A stretch of 15,148 nt of DNA, taken from assembly GCA_021204715.1 (NCBI GenBank), contig JAJPYW010000147.1, positions 1 through 15,148 on the forward strand, given 5' to 3'. Position numbers and translations under genes: made by a program. Within the stretch, counting starts at the first letter, position 1, and each line of letters begins with the position of its first letter. The DNA is from Prevotellaceae bacterium. GTDB lineage: Bacteria > Bacteroidota > Bacteroidia > Bacteroidales > Bacteroidaceae. A model generated the notes under the pieces. It was given only the letters and a program-made list of their open reading frames with translations, did no database searches and was not told where the DNA came from. This document shows, one piece after another, positions 3,603 to 11,223 of this stretch.

Positions 3603-5051
3603 CTACAGTCCCAAGGGTAACCGGCAGAGGTGCCAAAGCACGAGCAACGCCGTCCAAGCGAGAAAAATGACGAGCGCGTAGCGCCAAGTGTGGCGCAAGA
3701 GCGTGCCGTAACCCGCGCGGCGGTCGTAATGGTACAGGTAGGATAGAACCAACGGCATGTAGGGCAAGAGCGGCGTAAGCACATTGGTTACACTGTCCCC
3801 GACGCGGTATGCGCAGAGCACCGTTTCGGGGACAATGTTTTTCTGTGCCAACAAGGGCACGAAGATGAACGCCATAAAGCCCCACTTGGCAGTGGCCGAA
3901 GGCAGGAAGAGGTTGACAACGGCGGCGGTGAACACAAACAGGGGCAATGCCCACAAGCCGTCGGGGAACAGTGCCGACAAGCCACCGGCCACCGTGAGCG
4001 CGAGATACTCGCCCAAGTGGGAATAAGTGAGACAAGCGGACAGCTGGGCGGCGAAGAAGGCGATGACAAGGTAGGTGCCTATCAACCGCACGGGCTGCGC
4101 GAAGCCCTCGGCCACGTCGGTATCGTTGTGGTAACGTCCCGAGGCGAAGCCGTAAACCATGCCCATGAGCCCGATGCCTATAGAGAGCAGGAAAGACACG
4201 CCCACGATAAAGGGCGAGTGGATGAGCCCGCCACCCGCGCTCTTCAATATACCCCAAGGCGAGAAAGTGGCCAACAGGACAAGCGATGCATAGCACACAC
4301 CCACCGCCACTGCCGTGAACAGGGCGCGGCGCTCCTTGCGCGAGCGTTGCTTGCCGGCGGCAACAACCGTGTCGCCTTCATACTTGCCAAGGCGGGGCAA
4401 CAGCCTTCTGCGGGTAATGTGGTAGATGATAAAGCCCGCCAAGACGAGGGAGCAAGCAAGGAAATAGTAGTTGCACAAAGGCCCCACCTTCCCGAAAGAT
4501 ATGCCGCAAGTATAGGCCGCCTCGCGTGCGGTAGTGGACAGCTGCGGGTCGAGCGTGGTCAGGAAGAGGTTGACACCATAGCCGCACGCCACCGAGACGT
4601 AGGCCGTGAGCAGGCCGCCTGCCGGGTGCAGGCCGGCCGCTTGGAACAGCAGGGCGGCAAGGGGTAGCAGCAGTACATAACCGGCGTCGCCCACCACGTT
4701 GGAAAGCAATCCCGCCACAATGACACCCCACAGCACACGCTGCGGGCGCGGCGCGCGTCCGTTGCGCAGGCAGGCTTCCATGAAACCGGAATGGCGCGCG
4801 ATGCCGATGCAGCAAATGGCCACCACGCCCATTCCCCACGGGGTGAAGCCCGTGAAGTTGCCCACCGCATGGCTCAACAGCCAACGTATTCCTTCGGGGC
4901 CGAGCAGGCTCTGCACGGCAATCTCACGGCCCGTGCGGGGATGGGGCACGGAGAGTCCGTAGCTGTCGCATATCCACGACAGGAAGAGCGCGGCCAACGT
5001 CAGCAGGCAGAAGAGGGTGGCGGGATGAAGGGTGAAGCGCTTGGTTTTCAT
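3603..5051 (-). CDS. AbgT-family transporter (p-aminobenzoyl-glutamate transporter-like)
   Basis: A 482-residue polytopic inner-membrane protein with about ten or more hydrophobic segments and a charged cytoplasmic loop near 212-243. Family motifs are present: a first hairpin with SNVVGDAGYVLL near 117-128, SATAKW at 385-390, and RVGDSVTNVLTPLLPY at 416-431, all typical of AbgT proteins. Characterised members are AbgT of E. coli (uptake of p-aminobenzoyl-glutamate) and MtrF/YdaH (ion-driven antimetabolite export), so substrate and direction here are open. It is the last gene of a minus-strand operon: its ATG lies 12 bases after the stop of the response regulator. Length matches the family (about 490-510). 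The placement suggests that its expression follows the sensor system upstream. Confidence 0.88.
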   Translation of the reverse strand: MKTKRFTLHPATLFCLLTLAALFLSWICDSYGLSVPHPRTGREIAVQSLLGPEGIRWLLSHAVGNFTGFTPWGMGVVAICCIGIARHSGFMEACLRNGRAPRPQRVLWGVIVAGLLSNVVGDAGYVLLLPLAALLFQAAGLHPAGGLLTAYVSVACGYGVNLFLTTLDPQLSTTAREAAYTCGISFGKVGPLCNYYFLACSLVLAGFIIYHITRRRLLPRLGKYEGDTVVAAGKQRSRKERRALFTAVAVGVCYASLVLLATFSPWGILKSAGGGLIHSPFIVGVSFLLSIGIGLMGMVYGFASGRYHNDTDVAEGFAQPVRLIGTYLVIAFFAAQLSACLTYSHLGEYLALTVAGGLSALFPDGLWALPLFVFTAAVVNLFLPSATAKWGFMAFIFVPLLAQKNIVPETVLCAYRVGDSVTNVLTPLLPYMPLVLSYLYHYDRRAGYGTLLRHTWRYALVIFLAWTALLVLWHLCRLPLGL

Positions 5052-5063
5052 GGCGTGCCGCTT

Positions 5064-5792
5064 TTACTCGTCGTCGGCCTCCAACCGGTCTATGTCGAGG
5101 ATGCGCAGCTCCAAGGCGCGCACCACCAAGCGGGTGGCGTTCACGCCCAAGCGTTCACCTTGGGAGAAAAGCCGGCCCACCAAGTCGTTCTGCCGCTTCT
5201 CGAGCGACTTCACGCCGAAAGGCATCCCTTTCAGGTTGGCAATCATCTCCTTGGTATAGCCCAAGGCCAAGTGGCGCAGGAAGCGCTCGTCGTACTCGTC
5301 GATGTCGTAACGGATGACGGCCTCCTGCCGCCTTGCCTCGCCTATTACGGAACGTTTGAAACGCTCCACGATACGCTCCAATATGGGGTAGTTGAAGACG
5401 AGCTTCTTGCCGTCCATGACGGCCTGCACGTCGGTCTTGGTGAGCAGTTCGCCGGTCTTCAGAATGATGCCGTCGGCACCGGCGTCGAGCGCCTCTACCC
5501 ACAGCTTCTCATTGAGTACCTCGCCGGTGAATATCAATACATGCACGCCGGGATAGCGGGCGGTGACGTTGCGGCATATCTCCACGCCGATGGTGGTGGA
5601 ACCGCCCAATCCCAAGTCCAAGAGGACAAGGTCGGGCACGGCGCGCTCCATCAAAGGCCAGAACTCCCGCTCGGTCATGGCGGTGCCGATGACCTCGGCT
5701 TCGGGTATCTCGTAGCGGAATATCTCTTCGGTACCCTTCAACTCCAATTTCACATCTTCTACGATGATGACTTTAAATTTCTTTGCTTCCAT
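5064..5792 (-). CDS. NarL/LuxR-type response regulator
   Basis: The 242-residue protein has an N-terminal receiver domain (about 6-125) with the acidic pair E12 and D13, phospho-acceptor D59 in LVLLDLGLGG, T89 in FTGE and K112 in ILKTGE, all the residues needed for phosphorylation. A linker follows, then a C-terminal helix-turn-helix of LuxR/GerE type at about 170-232 (FLRHLALGYTKEMIANL, then VKSLEKRQNDL, then VNATRLVVRALE). It should be a DNA-binding transcription factor in the cytoplasm. It starts 37 bases after the stop of the double sensor kinase and ends 12 bases before the AbgT gene, so it is the obvious partner of that kinase. Targets are not shown by the sequence; self-regulation and AbgT control are reasonable guesses. 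Confidence 0.9.
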   Translation of the reverse strand: MEAKKFKVIIVEDVKLELKGTEEIFRYEIPEAEVIGTAMTEREFWPLMERAVPDLVLLDLGLGGSTTIGVEICRNVTARYPGVHVLIFTGEVLNEKLWVEALDAGADGIILKTGELLTKTDVQAVMDGKKLVFNYPILERIVERFKRSVIGEARRQEAVIRYDIDEYDERFLRHLALGYTKEMIANLKGMPFGVKSLEKRQNDLVGRLFSQGERLGVNATRLVVRALELRILDIDRLEADDE

Positions 5793-5829: not shown

Positions 5830-8800
5830 TCAAACGCCCTTGCCGGGCAAGGTAAAGCATACCGAGAATCCTCCGCCTTCAGCGGGGACGGCATAGACGC
5901 GGCATCCGCGCCGGCCGGCGTATTCGTCGTGGTCGCGCACTATCTGCTTGCACACCAAGTACTCCGTGCCTCGCAACGCTCCGTGGCTGCCGGCTATCAT
6001 GCGCTGCAAGTCGGGGAAGAAGAGCCGGTTCAACACGTCCTGCGCGTATGCGCGCCGGCGGTCGGTGAAGGTAAACTTGACGAAAGCGCCTTCTTGGGCA
6101 CACGTTAAGCCAAGGTCGCCGGACAAGGCAGAAGCGAGCGCCTCGTCTATGAGGCTCTCCAAGAGGAAAGCCAACAAGTGGCGGTCGCCCGTCACATAGG
6201 CATCCGCCGCCTCGGTGTGGAAGCGGATAAGGCCGGCCCTGTCCTTTACCGCCTTGCGGAAGTAACGCTCCGCCGCTTCCATGAGCTCCCTTGCCGAGAT
6301 TGTGCCGCGGCGGAATGTAACCTCCTCCAACTGACGGGACGCCTGCCGGCTCAAGATGGTGAAGATGCCTTTATAATAGGCCGTGAGTTCGCCGATAGCG
6401 GCGATGGTCGCGCGTTCTTCGGCCTCGGTAAGGGGGGCGGCGCGCAGCTTGGCGACCAATTGTTTGATTTTGCTTGGATAGTATGAGGTTTCGTGCTTGA
6501 TGGTGGAGAGGCAATTGTCCAACACCATGTTCTGCACGTGCAGCTGGCTCTCCTCCCAAGAAGCGCGGCGTGTCTCGTCTTGTGCGGTCTCGATGTCACG
6601 GTACTTGGCGGCCAGCTTCACCACCGCGTTGAATACCACGATGGCCATATAACGGGTAATCAACTGTAACAACAAGCGGTCGGCCTCGCGCGTGGCTTGT
6701 GGCGGCCGTTCCAAGCAAAGCACGCCTACCCTGCGGTGCTGCCCTCCTTTTTCCACCACCAAAGGAATGGCCTGCACGCCCTGCCGAGACAAATAAACGC
6801 CTTCGTCGAAACAGCGCCTCACCGTCTCCATGCAGAGCTGCCGCCTTTGGGCGGGCGCCTCCTTGGGGTTGAACGCGAAGGTCAAGTGGTGTGTAGACTC
6901 GCCATACACGGCAAGGCCCAAGCCGTCCACACCCAACAACTCGTTCACCGCATCGAAAGCCTCGTCGACGATGCGCTGGGGAATCTCCTGCAATACATCC
7001 TCCTCTTGCTCCAAACCGGTCTGCTCCACGGTGCGTAGCGGCATGGCCGAAGCTGCGAAGACTTGCCGGTTGATTTCGAGCACCTGCTCCAAATTCCAGC
7101 GGTAAACCAACCGGCGGCGGAAATAGAGGAAGTAATAACCCCAGGCCAACGTCAAAAACAAGAGCACAAAGAGCCATATACCCACCGTCTTGTTGGTGGT
7201 GGAGCGTTCCAATTCACGGCAATAGGCCTCCAAAGAGCTGTCCTCGCCCAAGAGCTTGTACAAGACGGTATAGGCCCGGTTGTTGTAATCGTAGGCGCTC
7301 CACTGCTTCAACGCCAAGAAAGCCACCGCCGCCTCGTTGCGTATGTCGAGTATCACGTGGTAATCCGAGTCGAAGCCTTCGTTCCACCAAGCCAGCTCGG
7401 CCGGCTCTTCTTCCGCTTCCAAGGCCATGAAGTGCCTCGGCAAAGAAGCGTAACGCGCGTAATGGTCGTTCAGGCAAACCATGGCGGAGTCAATGTAGGC
7501 CAACGCCTGTTCATACTGCCTGTCCACATTGCTATAATAAGCGCCGTTGGCGTAATCCGAAGCTTGATCCAACAAGGCATCATAGACCTGCCGCCATGCC
7601 GTGGCGGCGGAATCAGCCGCGGCGTCAGTACCATCGGTCACGACTGTTTCCTGCGACACGGCTGTATCCTGCGATGCCGACACTTCCCGTGCAGCATCCG
7701 TTTCCCGCACCGCGCCGTCACGATTGCCGCAACCGGCTAAGAGGGCGGGCAGCAGGAGCAACAACAACACGGACAATGGCTTGCGCACACCCGCCGGAAG
7801 GCGGAAGAAGAAACGGCTGCCCTTGCCCGGCGTGCTCTCCACACCGAAGAGACACACCTTGAAAAGGTCGCCTGCCTTGCGGTACTTCTCGATGATGCCC
7901 CGGCAGTTCATCAGCCCGAAGCCGCTGCCCTTGCGCTGCCGCAAGGACTCGCGGCGCGCCTCGTCGTCCATGCCGATGGCTTTGGAGTCGTACACCTTCT
8001 CTCCAACGATGCGGGCCACATCCGCCTTGGAGAGACCATAGCCGGTATCGGTGACGGACAACTCCACATAGTCTTCCTTTTGGAAAGCCGACACCTTGAC
8101 ACCGCCGCCCGCGTCGGTGTACTTGCGGGCATTCTCGGCCAACGTATTGATCATGAAAAGAGTCAGCGCCTTGTCCGCCTTTACCCAAAGGCTTGTAGGC
8201 TCCACGGTGAACGACAAACCTTTCAACTCGAAGGCGCGGCCTCCCTTGCGCAGCAAGTCGAAGAGTTCCTCCAAGCCGAAGGTCTCTATCTGCAAGCCCG
8301 GCGTGCCCTGCCGCATCTTCACCCACAAGGAGAGGATGTCGTTGTATTCATTGATGGCGGTAACCAACTCTTCCATGTACTGGTAACGCTCCCGCCGCAC
8401 TTCGACAGGGCAAAGTTCCCCGCCTTTGGTGAGCTTGCCCACTTCGCCGGCAATGCGGTCTATATAAGGATGGATGCCCTCCACAATGGCGATGCAAGCC
8501 CGCTTTACCAAGTTCTGCCGCTTGTCGCCGGCGATGTGCAGTTCATGTACATAGCGCCGCTTCTCCAAGCGGCGGCGCTCGTCGCCAAGCGAGATGGCAG
8601 TCGTACCGTTCTCCAACGCCCACTGGATGTAAGCGTTCAGCAACCGCGCCATCGCCTCCTCGTCCTTGTCCAAGGCGCGCGGCACCGAGAGCCGTCCCTC
8701 CTTGATGACGGTGCCCTCCACGCCGAACAACGCCTCCAACCCGCCGCGTGTAGCGGCCAGTAAGGAAGCCTCTATCTCTTCGGTATTCACCGCGTCGGGC

Positions 8801-10164
8801 GGAATGGAAGCGGTTATCTTTTGGCAAATGTCCAACATGAGCCGCAAGCGGTGCAGATGCAGGCGGTTGCGCGTGCGGGAGCGCCGGTTGAAGAACCAAA
8901 AGAAGAGACACACCGCCACGACCGCCACGCCCGTGGCCACCAACAACAAGTTGAGTTGCCGTTCCTCGTCCTGCAACGCCGCATAGCGGCTTTCCCATTC
9001 ACGGTCCTGCCGTGTCTCGTCCAAGATGTCCAAGTAGACGTTGCGGTTGATGTCCGAAGCCTCCTTCATCCCCAAGCCGGCATACGCCACGCTCATCTGC
9101 TCATGTATGCGCGACACACACTCGGGGACGGAAGCCTCGTTCCCCGCCACCGATGCTATGGCGCGGTCCAACGTGTCGAGCGCCTCACTGTAGTGTCCGT
9201 GCGCGTTCAAGTATTTACCGATGCAAGTATAAGCGCCGGCCACTTGGTAAGGGTCGTCATATTGCCTGAACAGCGCCAACGCCTCCTCGCCCAACCGCAA
9301 GGGAAGCAACGTGTCCACCGGCAAGCCAAGCTGGGAGAGCAGATGCCCGCGGCGCGAAAGGAAGAAGGCATACCCTTCGGGGAAAGCCATCATGCCCGCC
9401 AACCCCTGCAGGCCATTGCCTATAAAATAGGTATCGCCTTGCTTGGAAGCGTTCCGCCACACAAAATACAACTCGTCGAACGCCTGCAGACGCCGCTCGT
9501 CGGGTGTCTCGCCGTCGCCAAGCGAGGCGGCACCCTTCAAGTAATGGTATTGCAACCACTGGCCGCGGTCGGCCGTGAGCGAGACGTCCTCCTCCAAGAG
9601 CCGGAAAGCATCTATCGCCTCGGCGCGCTGTTGCAGGTAGTAATGGTAAACGGTCGACACCAAGTGGAATTCCGAACGGGCGTAGGCCAAGCGCGTGCGT
9701 CCGTGCCGGTCGGTAAAGAGGTCGCTCTCCTCGTCGATGCGTTTCATGCGGCGCAAGGCGCTGTTGCGGTAGTCGTAGAACTCCTTGTTGCGCGCCATGC
9801 GCTGGCACACGCGCATCATCCCGATGTCGGCCACAAGCAGTTCCAGCTCGTTCTTGGTCAGGCTGTACACTTCACGGTGCAGGCGCTCGGCCTCGAGGAA
9901 GTCCATGCGCATGAAAGCACAAAAACCAAGGTTGTCGCACGCCTCGGCCTTGCCATAACGGTAAAGGCCCGCCGCCTTGTAAGCGGTGGCGGCGGCCGAT
10001 GTGGAACGCTCCAACTCCTTGTAACGGGCATTGTAAGAGACTGCGTTCAACGAATCCACCCGGAAAGTCCCTGCGGTGGACACCCCGCCCGAACAGCCCG
10101 CGGCGGCCATGCACACCATGCACAGCGTTACGGCCAAAGCATATATGTATGAAGCCCGTTTCAT
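5830..10164 (-). CDS. Double sensor histidine kinase, DUF5112/DUF5113 type
   Basis: 1444 residues. Visible order: lipoprotein-like signal with Cys24; periplasmic TPR-like sensor (about 40-395; clearest repeat 307-336); TM helix 406-426; cytoplasmic kinase module 1 (about 440-790) with N-box N678, G1 D706-x-G708-x-G710 and G2 GSGFGL 746-751; a second lipoprotein-like hydrophobic segment ending LLAGC (Cys812); a second periplasmic module (about 813-990); TM helix 994-1015; a GAF-like region (about 1030-1180); kinase module 2 with an H-box KHET (H1224) but an ATP-binding half that lacks the glycine motifs (TFTDRRR 1365-1371; GTEYLV 1399-1404). Module 1 has no H-E/D-x-x-x-P box; its nearest His is H565 in GIHPYIDR. 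I recall this architecture from Bacteroides proteins annotated DUF5112/DUF5113, so the fusion is probably family-wide. First gene of the operon with the regulator and AbgT. Confidence 0.88.
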   Translation of the reverse strand: MKRASYIYALAVTLCMVCMAAAGCSGGVSTAGTFRVDSLNAVSYNARYKELERSTSAAATAYKAAGLYRYGKAEACDNLGFCAFMRMDFLEAERLHREVYSLTKNELELLVADIGMMRVCQRMARNKEFYDYRNSALRRMKRIDEESDLFTDRHGRTRLAYARSEFHLVSTVYHYYLQQRAEAIDAFRLLEEDVSLTADRGQWLQYHYLKGAASLGDGETPDERRLQAFDELYFVWRNASKQGDTYFIGNGLQGLAGMMAFPEGYAFFLSRRGHLLSQLGLPVDTLLPLRLGEEALALFRQYDDPYQVAGAYTCIGKYLNAHGHYSEALDTLDRAIASVAGNEASVPECVSRIHEQMSVAYAGLGMKEASDINRNVYLDILDETRQDREWESRYAALQDEERQLNLLLVATGVAVVAVCLFFWFFNRRSRTRNRLHLHRLRLMLDICQKITASIPPDAVNTEEIEASLLAATRGGLEALFGVEGTVIKEGRLSVPRALDKDEEAMARLLNAYIQWALENGTTAISLGDERRRLEKRRYVHELHIAGDKRQNLVKRACIAIVEGIHPYIDRIAGEVGKLTKGGELCPVEVRRERYQYMEELVTAINEYNDILSLWVKMRQGTPGLQIETFGLEELFDLLRKGGRAFELKGLSFTVEPTSLWVKADKALTLFMINTLAENARKYTDAGGGVKVSAFQKEDYVELSVTDTGYGLSKADVARIVGEKVYDSKAIGMDDEARRESLRQRKGSGFGLMNCRGIIEKYRKAGDLFKVCLFGVESTPGKGSRFFFRLPAGVRKPLSVLLLLLLPALLAGCGNRDGAVRETDAAREVSASQDTAVSQETVVTDGTDAAADSAATAWRQVYDALLDQASDYANGAYYSNVDRQYEQALAYIDSAMVCLNDHYARYASLPRHFMALEAEEEPAELAWWNEGFDSDYHVILDIRNEAAVAFLALKQWSAYDYNNRAYTVLYKLLGEDSSLEAYCRELERSTTNKTVGIWLFVLLFLTLAWGYYFLYFRRRLVYRWNLEQVLEINRQVFAASAMPLRTVEQTGLEQEEDVLQEIPQRIVDEAFDAVNELLGVDGLGLAVYGESTHHLTFAFNPKEAPAQRRQLCMETVRRCFDEGVYLSRQGVQAIPLVVEKGGQHRRVGVLCLERPPQATREADRLLLQLITRYMAIVVFNAVVKLAAKYRDIETAQDETRRASWEESQLHVQNMVLDNCLSTIKHETSYYPSKIKQLVAKLRAAPLTEAEERATIAAIGELTAYYKGIFTILSRQASRQLEEVTFRRGTISARELMEAAERYFRKAVKDRAGLIRFHTEAADAYVTGDRHLLAFLLESLIDEALASALSGDLGLTCAQEGAFVKFTFTDRRRAYAQDVLNRLFFPDLQRMIAGSHGALRGTEYLVCKQIVRDHDEYAGRRGCRVYAVPAEGGGFSVCFTLPGKGV

Positions 10165-10218: not shown

Positions 10219-10250
10219 TTGCCTAATGTAAGTGGAATTCCTTACCTTTG
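10219..10250 (+). promoter_or_regulatory. Putative prs promoter
   Basis: TTG at 10219-10221 and TACCTTTG at 10243-10250 are 21 bases apart, a good fit to Bacteroidetes -33 and -7 elements. Transcription would start near 10257, giving a leader of about 28 bases. It is divergent from the kinase operon. Confidence 0.6.
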
Positions 10251-10284
10251 CAAGAAATTAACAAGAGGTAATAGATACGCTATA

Positions 10285-11223
10285 ATGAACGGAAATGCAC
10301 CCTTTATGGTATTTTCGGGGACCAATTCAAAATACCTTGCAGAGAAGATCTGCGCACACCTTGGTTGTCCACTCGGACAAATGAACATCACCCACTTCGC
10401 CGACGGCGAGTTCGCCGTATCCTACGAAGAGTCCATACGCGGTGCCAACGTATTCTTGGTACAATCCACCTTTCCCAACTCGGACAACTTGATGGAGTTG
10501 TTGCTCATGGTCGACGCCGCCAAGCGCGCCTCGGCCAAGAACATCATCGCCGTGGTGCCTTACTTCGGATGGGCGCGTCAAGACAGGAAAGACAAGCCGC
10601 GTGTCTCCATAGGCGCCAAGTTGGTGGCCGACTTGCTCTCGGTAGCCGGCATCAACCGTTTAATCACCATGGACCTGCACGCCGACCAGATACAAGGCTT
10701 CTTCAATATCCCGGTAGACCACTTGTACGCCTCGGCCGTGTTCCTGCCTTACATCGAGTCCTTGCACTTGGACAACTTGGTTATCGCCGCGCCCGATGTG
10801 GGCGGTTCCAAGCGCGCCAACACATTCTCCAAGTACTTGGGCGTGCCCTTGGTGCTGTGCAACAAGACACGCGAGAAGGCCAACGTGGTAGCTTCCATAC
10901 AGATTATCGGCGACGTACAAGGCAAGAACGTGGTGCTTGTCGACGACATTGTAGACACCGCCGGCACCATGACCAAAGCGGCCAATGTCATGCTCGAAGC
11001 GGGTGCCAAGTCGGTGCGCGGCATCGCCAGCCACTGCGTCATGTCCGACCCCGCCTCGTTCCGCGTGCAGGAGTCGGCCTTGGTCGAGATGGTCTTTACC
11101 GACAGCATTCCCTACACCAAGAAGTGCGCCAAGGTAAAGCAGCTCAGCATCGCCGACATGTTCGCCGAAACCATCAGGCGCGTGGTCAACAACGAGTCCA
11201 TCAGCTCGCAATACATCATATAG
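10285..11223 (+). CDS. prs: Ribose-phosphate pyrophosphokinase (PRPP synthetase)
   Basis: Prs makes 5-phosphoribosyl-1-pyrophosphate from ribose 5-phosphate and ATP, feeding purine, pyrimidine, histidine and NAD synthesis in the cytoplasm. From ATG 10285 it has 312 residues, the usual length. Key segments: ATP-contacting FGWARQDRKDKPRVSIGAK (94-112), MDLHADQIQGFF with His132, DVGGSKRA (171-178), flexible-loop NKTRE with Lys194, and the PRPP-binding loop VLVDDIVDTAGTMT (217-230). The 22 codons upstream to 10219 are rejected because they overlap the promoter and the MNGNAPFMVFSG start matches Bacteroides Prs. Monocistronic by position: the upstream neighbour is divergent and the downstream one convergent. 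Confidence 0.97.
   Translation: MNGNAPFMVFSGTNSKYLAEKICAHLGCPLGQMNITHFADGEFAVSYEESIRGANVFLVQSTFPNSDNLMELLLMVDAAKRASAKNIIAVVPYFGWARQDRKDKPRVSIGAKLVADLLSVAGINRLITMDLHADQIQGFFNIPVDHLYASAVFLPYIESLHLDNLVIAAPDVGGSKRANTFSKYLGVPLVLCNKTREKANVVASIQIIGDVQGKNVVLVDDIVDTAGTMTKAANVMLEAGAKSVRGIASHCVMSDPASFRVQESALVEMVFTDSIPYTKKCAKVKQLSIADMFAETIRRVVNNESISSQYII

Follow-up and report, generated by a model that had tools for sequence, protein, structure and literature searches.

Here we analyse a stretch of 15,148 nucleotides (contig JAJPYW010000147.1 of the Prevotellaceae bacterium assembly GCA_021204715.1; hereafter the window) from a genome whose nearest named relatives are Bacteroides and its neighbours, with a focus on one gene that encodes a tandem DUF5112/DUF5113 sensor kinase. 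The distribution of catalytic residues suggests that this single gene probably encodes a split sensor histidine kinase, in which the intact ATP-binding half of the first module (CA1) would phosphorylate a histidine (H1224) of the second. We further lean towards the view that the product is a polyprotein, whose internal signal peptide, having alternated repeatedly between lipobox and signal peptidase I sites with one or the other retained in most relatives, yields two anchored subunits with mirror-image defects, forming an obligate 1:1 heteromer in most Bacteroidaceae. The features of the gene are listed below, with residue numbers referring to the encoded chain (TM, transmembrane helix).

5830..10164, minus strand: open reading frame (ORF) of the tandem DUF5112/DUF5113 sensor kinase, ATG start, 1444 amino acids (aa), single frame
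10093..10164, minus strand: lipoprotein-like N-terminal signal peptide, residues 1-24, ending at C24 (Cys in 79/79 rows of the close alignment)
9265..10059, minus strand: DUF5112, residues 36-300 (Pfam PF17139, E 3.1e-87)
8881..9261, minus strand: first DUF5113 (PF17140 stretches 8881-9132 and 9151-9261), including TM1 (about 406-424, from hydropathy)
8245..8532, minus strand: pseudo-DHp of module 1 (DHp1), about 545-640; G563 (8476-8478) matches H1224 in the hhalign alignment
7789..8232, minus strand: CA1, intact ATP half, about 645-792, with N678, D706, G708, G710, G746, G748 and G750
7729..7803, minus strand: internal signal peptide-like segment, about 788-812, ending at the lipobox residue C812
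7117..7584, minus strand: second DUF5113, 861-1016 (PF17140), with TM3 (about 994-1012, from hydropathy) at its end
6709..6924, minus strand: GAF-like alpha/beta stretch, about 1081-1152, from the secondary structure of the predicted model, the name GAF being our inference
6265..6573, minus strand: DHp2, about 1198-1300, with H1224 at 6493-6495 in the motif NCLSTIKHETxYYP
5839..6252, minus strand: CA2, about 1305-1442, a CA domain that lacks the ATP-site motifs, with GTEYLV at 1399

The initial annotation of the window had proposed two kinase modules with complementary defects, and each residue that it named lies where it was placed: H565 in GIHPY, N678 in NTLAENARKY, DTGYGL at 706, GSGFGL at 746, H1224 in KHET, and GTEYLV at 1399. 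Pfam calls HATPase_c only once across the chain, at residues 671-791, and DUF5113 is present twice, with one copy per half. The scores of DUF5112 and DUF5113 (292.8 and 276.9 bits, against gathering thresholds of 29.4 and 27.1) place the protein in this family. Conservation was assessed in two alignments. Among 162 relatives from named genomes, 80 were retained as a close set, 78 of which have a long single frame of at least 1380 aa; these full-length orthologues and the query form a 79-row alignment. Together with 33 divergent members and 95 further regions (L252-L346), they form a 207-row alignment, in which 194 rows are distinct and 13 repeat another row, and in which the lowest pairwise identity is 27%. 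The 95 further regions were prescreened for [KR]HE[TSM], which carries a risk of bias for the H1224 count; two that failed the screen, L313 and L315, were inspected, found to carry KHEA, and put back into the alignment. For L336, a frame other than the longest one was used. The alignments leave out L251 (contig end), L076 (in-frame stop), L122 (truncation), and L016 (frameshift).

The pattern of defects is not a matter of chance, since it recurs throughout these alignments. In the close set, N678, D706, G708, G710, G746, G748, G750, L751, H1224, E1225, and T1226 are each conserved in 79/79 rows, and N678, D706, G708, G710, G748, G750, K1223, H1224, E1225, and P1230 are invariant in 207/207, with G746 retained in 188 rows and T1226 in 199. 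Module 1 has residue 563 as the counterpart of H1224, and this position does not hold His in any of the 207 rows (G in 146 rows, S in 32, A in 15, N in 8, D in 3, and E, V, and T in one each), which bears out the earlier claim that this module lacks a canonical H-box. The initial annotation had called for an alignment of orthologues and had named poor conservation of H1224 as grounds for giving up its reading; both D706 and H1224 proved to be present in every row, whereas H565, the nearest His, is His in only 23/207 rows and in 21/79 of the close ones. CA2 retains the CA fold in the query's predicted model, but neither DxGxG nor GxGxxL occurs there in any of the 207 rows, and N is found at position 1341 in 3. 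Furthermore, a profile-profile alignment of the modules (hhalign; probability 97.7, E 2.5e-12) sets G563 opposite H1224 and N678 opposite E1341, indicating that modules 1 and 2 are homologous to each other. Mean pairwise identity over the 207 rows is highest in CA1 (0.60), DHp2 (0.53), and DHp1 (0.50), followed by the second periplasmic part (0.42), CA2 (0.39), and the GAF-like part (0.24), the last being short or lost in 58/207 relatives.

Since in none of the 207 rows do the His box and the ATP boxes share a module, the protein does not have the layout of an ordinary single-module sensor kinase. One part (the CA1 module) appears to carry an ATP site without a phosphoacceptor, and the other (module 2) a phosphoacceptor without an ATP site, which at the level of sequence are two of the features expected of a split kinase. 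Because the defects are complementary and both CA1 and H1224 are absolutely conserved, action of CA1 on H1224 would be the natural reading, as the initial annotation had suggested. Alternatively, module 1 could act as a kinase on its own, either through another residue, such as H543 (8536-8538, upstream of the pseudo-DHp site), or by phosphorylating the regulator directly. We consider this very improbable: H543 is His in 157/207 rows and in 76/79 close ones, but its position precedes the canonical site by 20 residues and, unlike that of H1224, varies among the rows. It is very improbable that the protein is not a kinase at all, with module 2 phosphorylated by another kinase and the protein serving mainly as a phosphatase or an ATP-gated sensor. 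CA1 has kinase boxes that do not vary across the 207 rows, and the residue four positions after H1224, Y1228 (6481-6483), is Tyr in 205/207 rows, whereas HisKA kinases typically carry Thr or Asn at this phosphatase position.

Hydropathy peaks along the chain coincide with the signal peptide at the N-terminus, TM1 (406-424), a segment between the modules (796-814), and TM3 (994-1012). The inter-module segment bears marks of a cleavable signal peptide. In the close alignment, C812 is retained in 73/79 rows and position 811 holds S, G, or A in 77/79, while divergent members without Cys at 812 often have an AxA-like site at the same place. Under one fixed rule, 110/207 rows have a lipobox and, of the remaining 97, 68 have an AxA-like site, giving 178/207 (86%) together and leaving 29 with neither; a looser pattern gives classes of 117, 80, and 10. 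By comparison, control in-to-out helices from the same loci have a lipobox in 10/196 cases and, among the remaining 186, an AxA-like site in 66 (together 39%), and TM1 has a lipobox in 0/79 and an AxA-like site in 8/79, whereas the N-terminal signal peptide has a lipobox in 72/79 and an AxA-like site in 4/7. A strict AxA pattern is matched by 44/97 non-lipobox rows versus 38/186 controls, and in an earlier test with a narrower range around the site, a lipobox or AxA was found in 67/76 close orthologues and 19/33 divergent members, versus 47/252 controls. The controls are uncurated ORFs from the same loci with at least 5 predicted helices (107 ORFs; 98 in the narrower-range test), many of which are probably orthologues of one transporter. 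Additionally, the hydrophobic core of the segment is shorter (16.8 residues, versus 20.6 in TM1 and 22.4 in TM3) and less hydrophobic (KD12 2.55, versus 3.28 and 3.42). On a FastTree tree built without the segment, lipobox and non-lipobox states have interchanged at least 15 times. In the predicted model, the sole stretch of at least 3 residues with a predicted local distance difference test (pLDDT) score below 50 is 808-855, which begins at the lipobox site.

These marks suggest that the mature kinase probably consists of two polypeptides. Provided that the split-kinase core is correct, the evidence tilts towards the segment being a cleaved internal signal peptide, most likely processed by signal peptidase II in members with a putative lipobox and by signal peptidase I elsewhere. 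The earlier phrase "in one chain" would thus stand for the reading frame, but is doubtful for the mature protein. Separate translation of module 2 is unlikely, because no conserved start codon occurs near the segment: the best single columns hold ATG in 9, GTG in 23, and TTG in 36 of the 78 orthologues, ATG never exceeds 9/78 in columns 772-801, and at no column do as many as half of the orthologues carry a start codon. An artefact of sequencing, assembly, or start-site choice, in which two genes were falsely joined or module 2 starts internally, is exceedingly unlikely. The host assembly is 71.6% complete, an in-frame stop occurs in one relative and a frameshift in another, and the GTG and TTG counts above lie near the segment, but the gene is a single frame in all 78 full-length orthologues, among them isolates and a complete B. 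fragilis chromosome, and the joined-gene version is refuted by this. The in-frame stop is at 8629-8631 in a B. neonati record (L076) and the frameshift is in the kinase gene of G007 contig 22 (L016); sequencing error or decay could explain either.

A less probable but substantial alternative is that the split kinase is never cut, the segment being an ordinary membrane helix and CA1 reaching H1224 within the polypeptide or across a homodimer. It would account for the one open frame and for the outcome of searches for a separate module 2. A DHp2 profile matched once each in 11/11 DUF5112-positive genomes, always in frames of at least 1000 aa, and, in a first scan run without a positive control, matched in none of 32 genomes (30 Bacteroidaceae without a DUF5112 match, together with G155, which has a weak DUF5113 match, and G180, both of other families); in total, no free-standing module 2 was found in the 46 genomes searched (32 + 14). 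Since the profile matches only together with DUF5112 and in a long frame, the two halves travel together in these genomes. The profile also gave no match in two genomes of family f101 (see below) and G242, and its failure in the f101 genomes shows that it is blind to the single-module relative. The length and hydropathy of the segment relative to TM1 and TM3, and the lipobox or AxA-like site in 178/207 rows, argue against an uncut chain.

Several observations weigh against the split-kinase and polyprotein reading. The rows of both alignments share ancestry, so their counts are not independent. CA2 retains D1368 in 79/79 close rows and 142/207 overall, despite the loss of its glycines; this refines the earlier description of an ATP half without DxGxG, and means that CA2 could still bind a ligand. 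Mean-field direct coupling analysis (DCA; 207 rows, 464 columns, effective sequence number (Neff) 135) returned noise for DHp1-DHp2 and CA1-DHp2 contacts, with the top pairs scattered across all domain pairs. With regard to the segment, neither site is present in 10 to 29 of the 207 rows, depending on the pattern, and its hydropathy is only slightly below that of the control helices (KD12 2.55 versus 2.72). When all internal control helices are considered, 60/677 have a lipobox and 239 of the other 617 an AxA-like site (together 0.44), and TM3 has a lipobox in 6/207 and an AxA-like site in 76/201 (together 0.40 under the loose test). Motifs of the AxA type are short, and as evidence they carry less weight than the lipobox.

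In the proposed split-kinase mechanism, module 1, comprising the signal peptide, the periplasmic DUF5112/DUF5113 part, TM1, the pseudo-DHp without His, and CA1, would provide ATP binding and catalysis, whereas module 2, comprising the second DUF5113, TM3, DHp2 with H1224, and CA2 without an ATP site, would provide the phosphoacceptor. Cleavage at the internal signal peptide would produce the two anchored subunits in a 1:1 ratio. By analogy with the usual dimer architecture of such kinases, the most likely arrangement is a pseudo-heterodimer of the pseudo-DHp and DHp2, in which CA2 would persist as a remnant with a structural or regulatory role. The phosphoryl group would then pass from CA1 to H1224 and on to D59 of the adjacent DUF5932 regulator. 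Two inputs to the kinase are possible, since the second periplasmic part is kept (identity 0.42) and DUF5112 marks the first. The interpretation of the initial annotation is thus supported in part, while its AND-type switch, with each sensor half gating the other, would be a conjectural way of combining the two inputs.

Split histidine kinases are already known, and examples include CheA3/CheA4 of Rhodobacter sphaeroides (PMC3591291) and Hik36/Hik43 of Synechocystis (PMC7656254). Neither CheA3 nor CheA4 is reported to autophosphorylate alone (PMC3591291, PMC7656254). HisKA proteins without HATPase, as counted in SMART, are proposed as possible further split kinases (PMC3591291). Like these pairs, the kinase described here appears from its sequence to have an ATP half and a His half in complementary parts. 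Unlike these pairs, which are CheA-type and encoded by separate genes, it has two homologous DHp/CA modules in one frame with an internal signal peptide-like segment. DivL-type pseudokinases also act together with another kinase, but here a single reading frame encodes both partners, whose defects mirror each other. A bacterial polyprotein considered to be processed at an internal signal peptide is the FbcH cytochrome b/c1 protein of Bradyrhizobium, which belongs to a respiratory complex, unlike the kinase here, but shares the proposed mode of cleavage; our literature search on internal signal peptides and bacterial polyproteins returned mainly viral or unrelated papers, and FbcH was not met in it.

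If this interpretation is correct, the gene would represent a widespread natural split kinase of gut bacteria, drawn from a family of unknown function, and a model for the division of catalytic parts between duplicated kinases. If both halves are needed, it would allow the integration of two sensors through a forced heteromer to be tested cleanly. Cleavage at the internal signal peptide, if it occurs, would add a polyprotein route to bacterial signalling, possibly with lipoprotein signal peptidase acting inside a chain.

DUF5112, DUF5113, and DUF5932 (PF17139, PF17140, PF19355) are Pfam families of unknown function, and our literature search found no paper naming any of them by family name or accession. 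DUF5112 is present in 312/399 Bacteroidaceae genomes, representing 25/30 genera. Outside Bacteroidaceae, DUF5113 gave weak matches only, in 6/295 genomes of the order, one of them above the cut-off with neighbours. DUF5932 was found in 8/393 genomes sampled from the order, namely six Bacteroidaceae and two of family f101. In family f101, a single-module kinase (L180, 710 aa; L181) has a lipoprotein-like N-terminus, a TM, a DHp with a CLSIFRHDMSPY box and the motif CLSxxxHD, and an intact CA, followed by a DUF5932 regulator gene. It shares this layout with the tandem kinase, but is one complete kinase rather than two half-broken ones and has no DUF5112/DUF5113 hit. The simplest history, in its presumed direction, would be duplication of an f101-like single kinase, in-frame fusion, and complementary loss. 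Among the relatives of the tandem kinase, shortened members of 1031 to 1256 aa (L218-L225, groups g187 and g192) have mostly lost the CA2 motifs and retain CA1 and H1224.

The gene adjacent to the kinase encodes the presumed regulator:

5064..5792, minus strand: response regulator with a receiver and a DUF5932 output domain (Pfam); D59 at 5616-5618

In the window this is the next gene on the strand of the kinase, and a DUF5932 regulator gene follows the kinase gene in 75/78 loci, in agreement with the single regulator of the initial annotation. Of the three loci without it, one is at a contig edge, and two, from Mediterranea metagenome-assembled genomes (L090 and L092), have 6.0 and 2.2 kb of downstream sequence in which none was found. 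In hybrid two-component systems (HTCS) of Bacteroides, the kinase chain itself also contains a receiver and a DNA-binding domain; here the receiver is in a separate gene, and the kinase is not of this type. Further downstream lies an AbgT-family transporter gene (3603-5051), present in 72/78 loci, and upstream a prs-like gene (10219-11223), named by eye, in 48/78; the two make up a conserved neighbourhood. The regulator is highly conserved, with 124/242 positions at 97% or above in 76 rows, and its output domain gives the impression of a degenerate LuxR-type helix-turn-helix.

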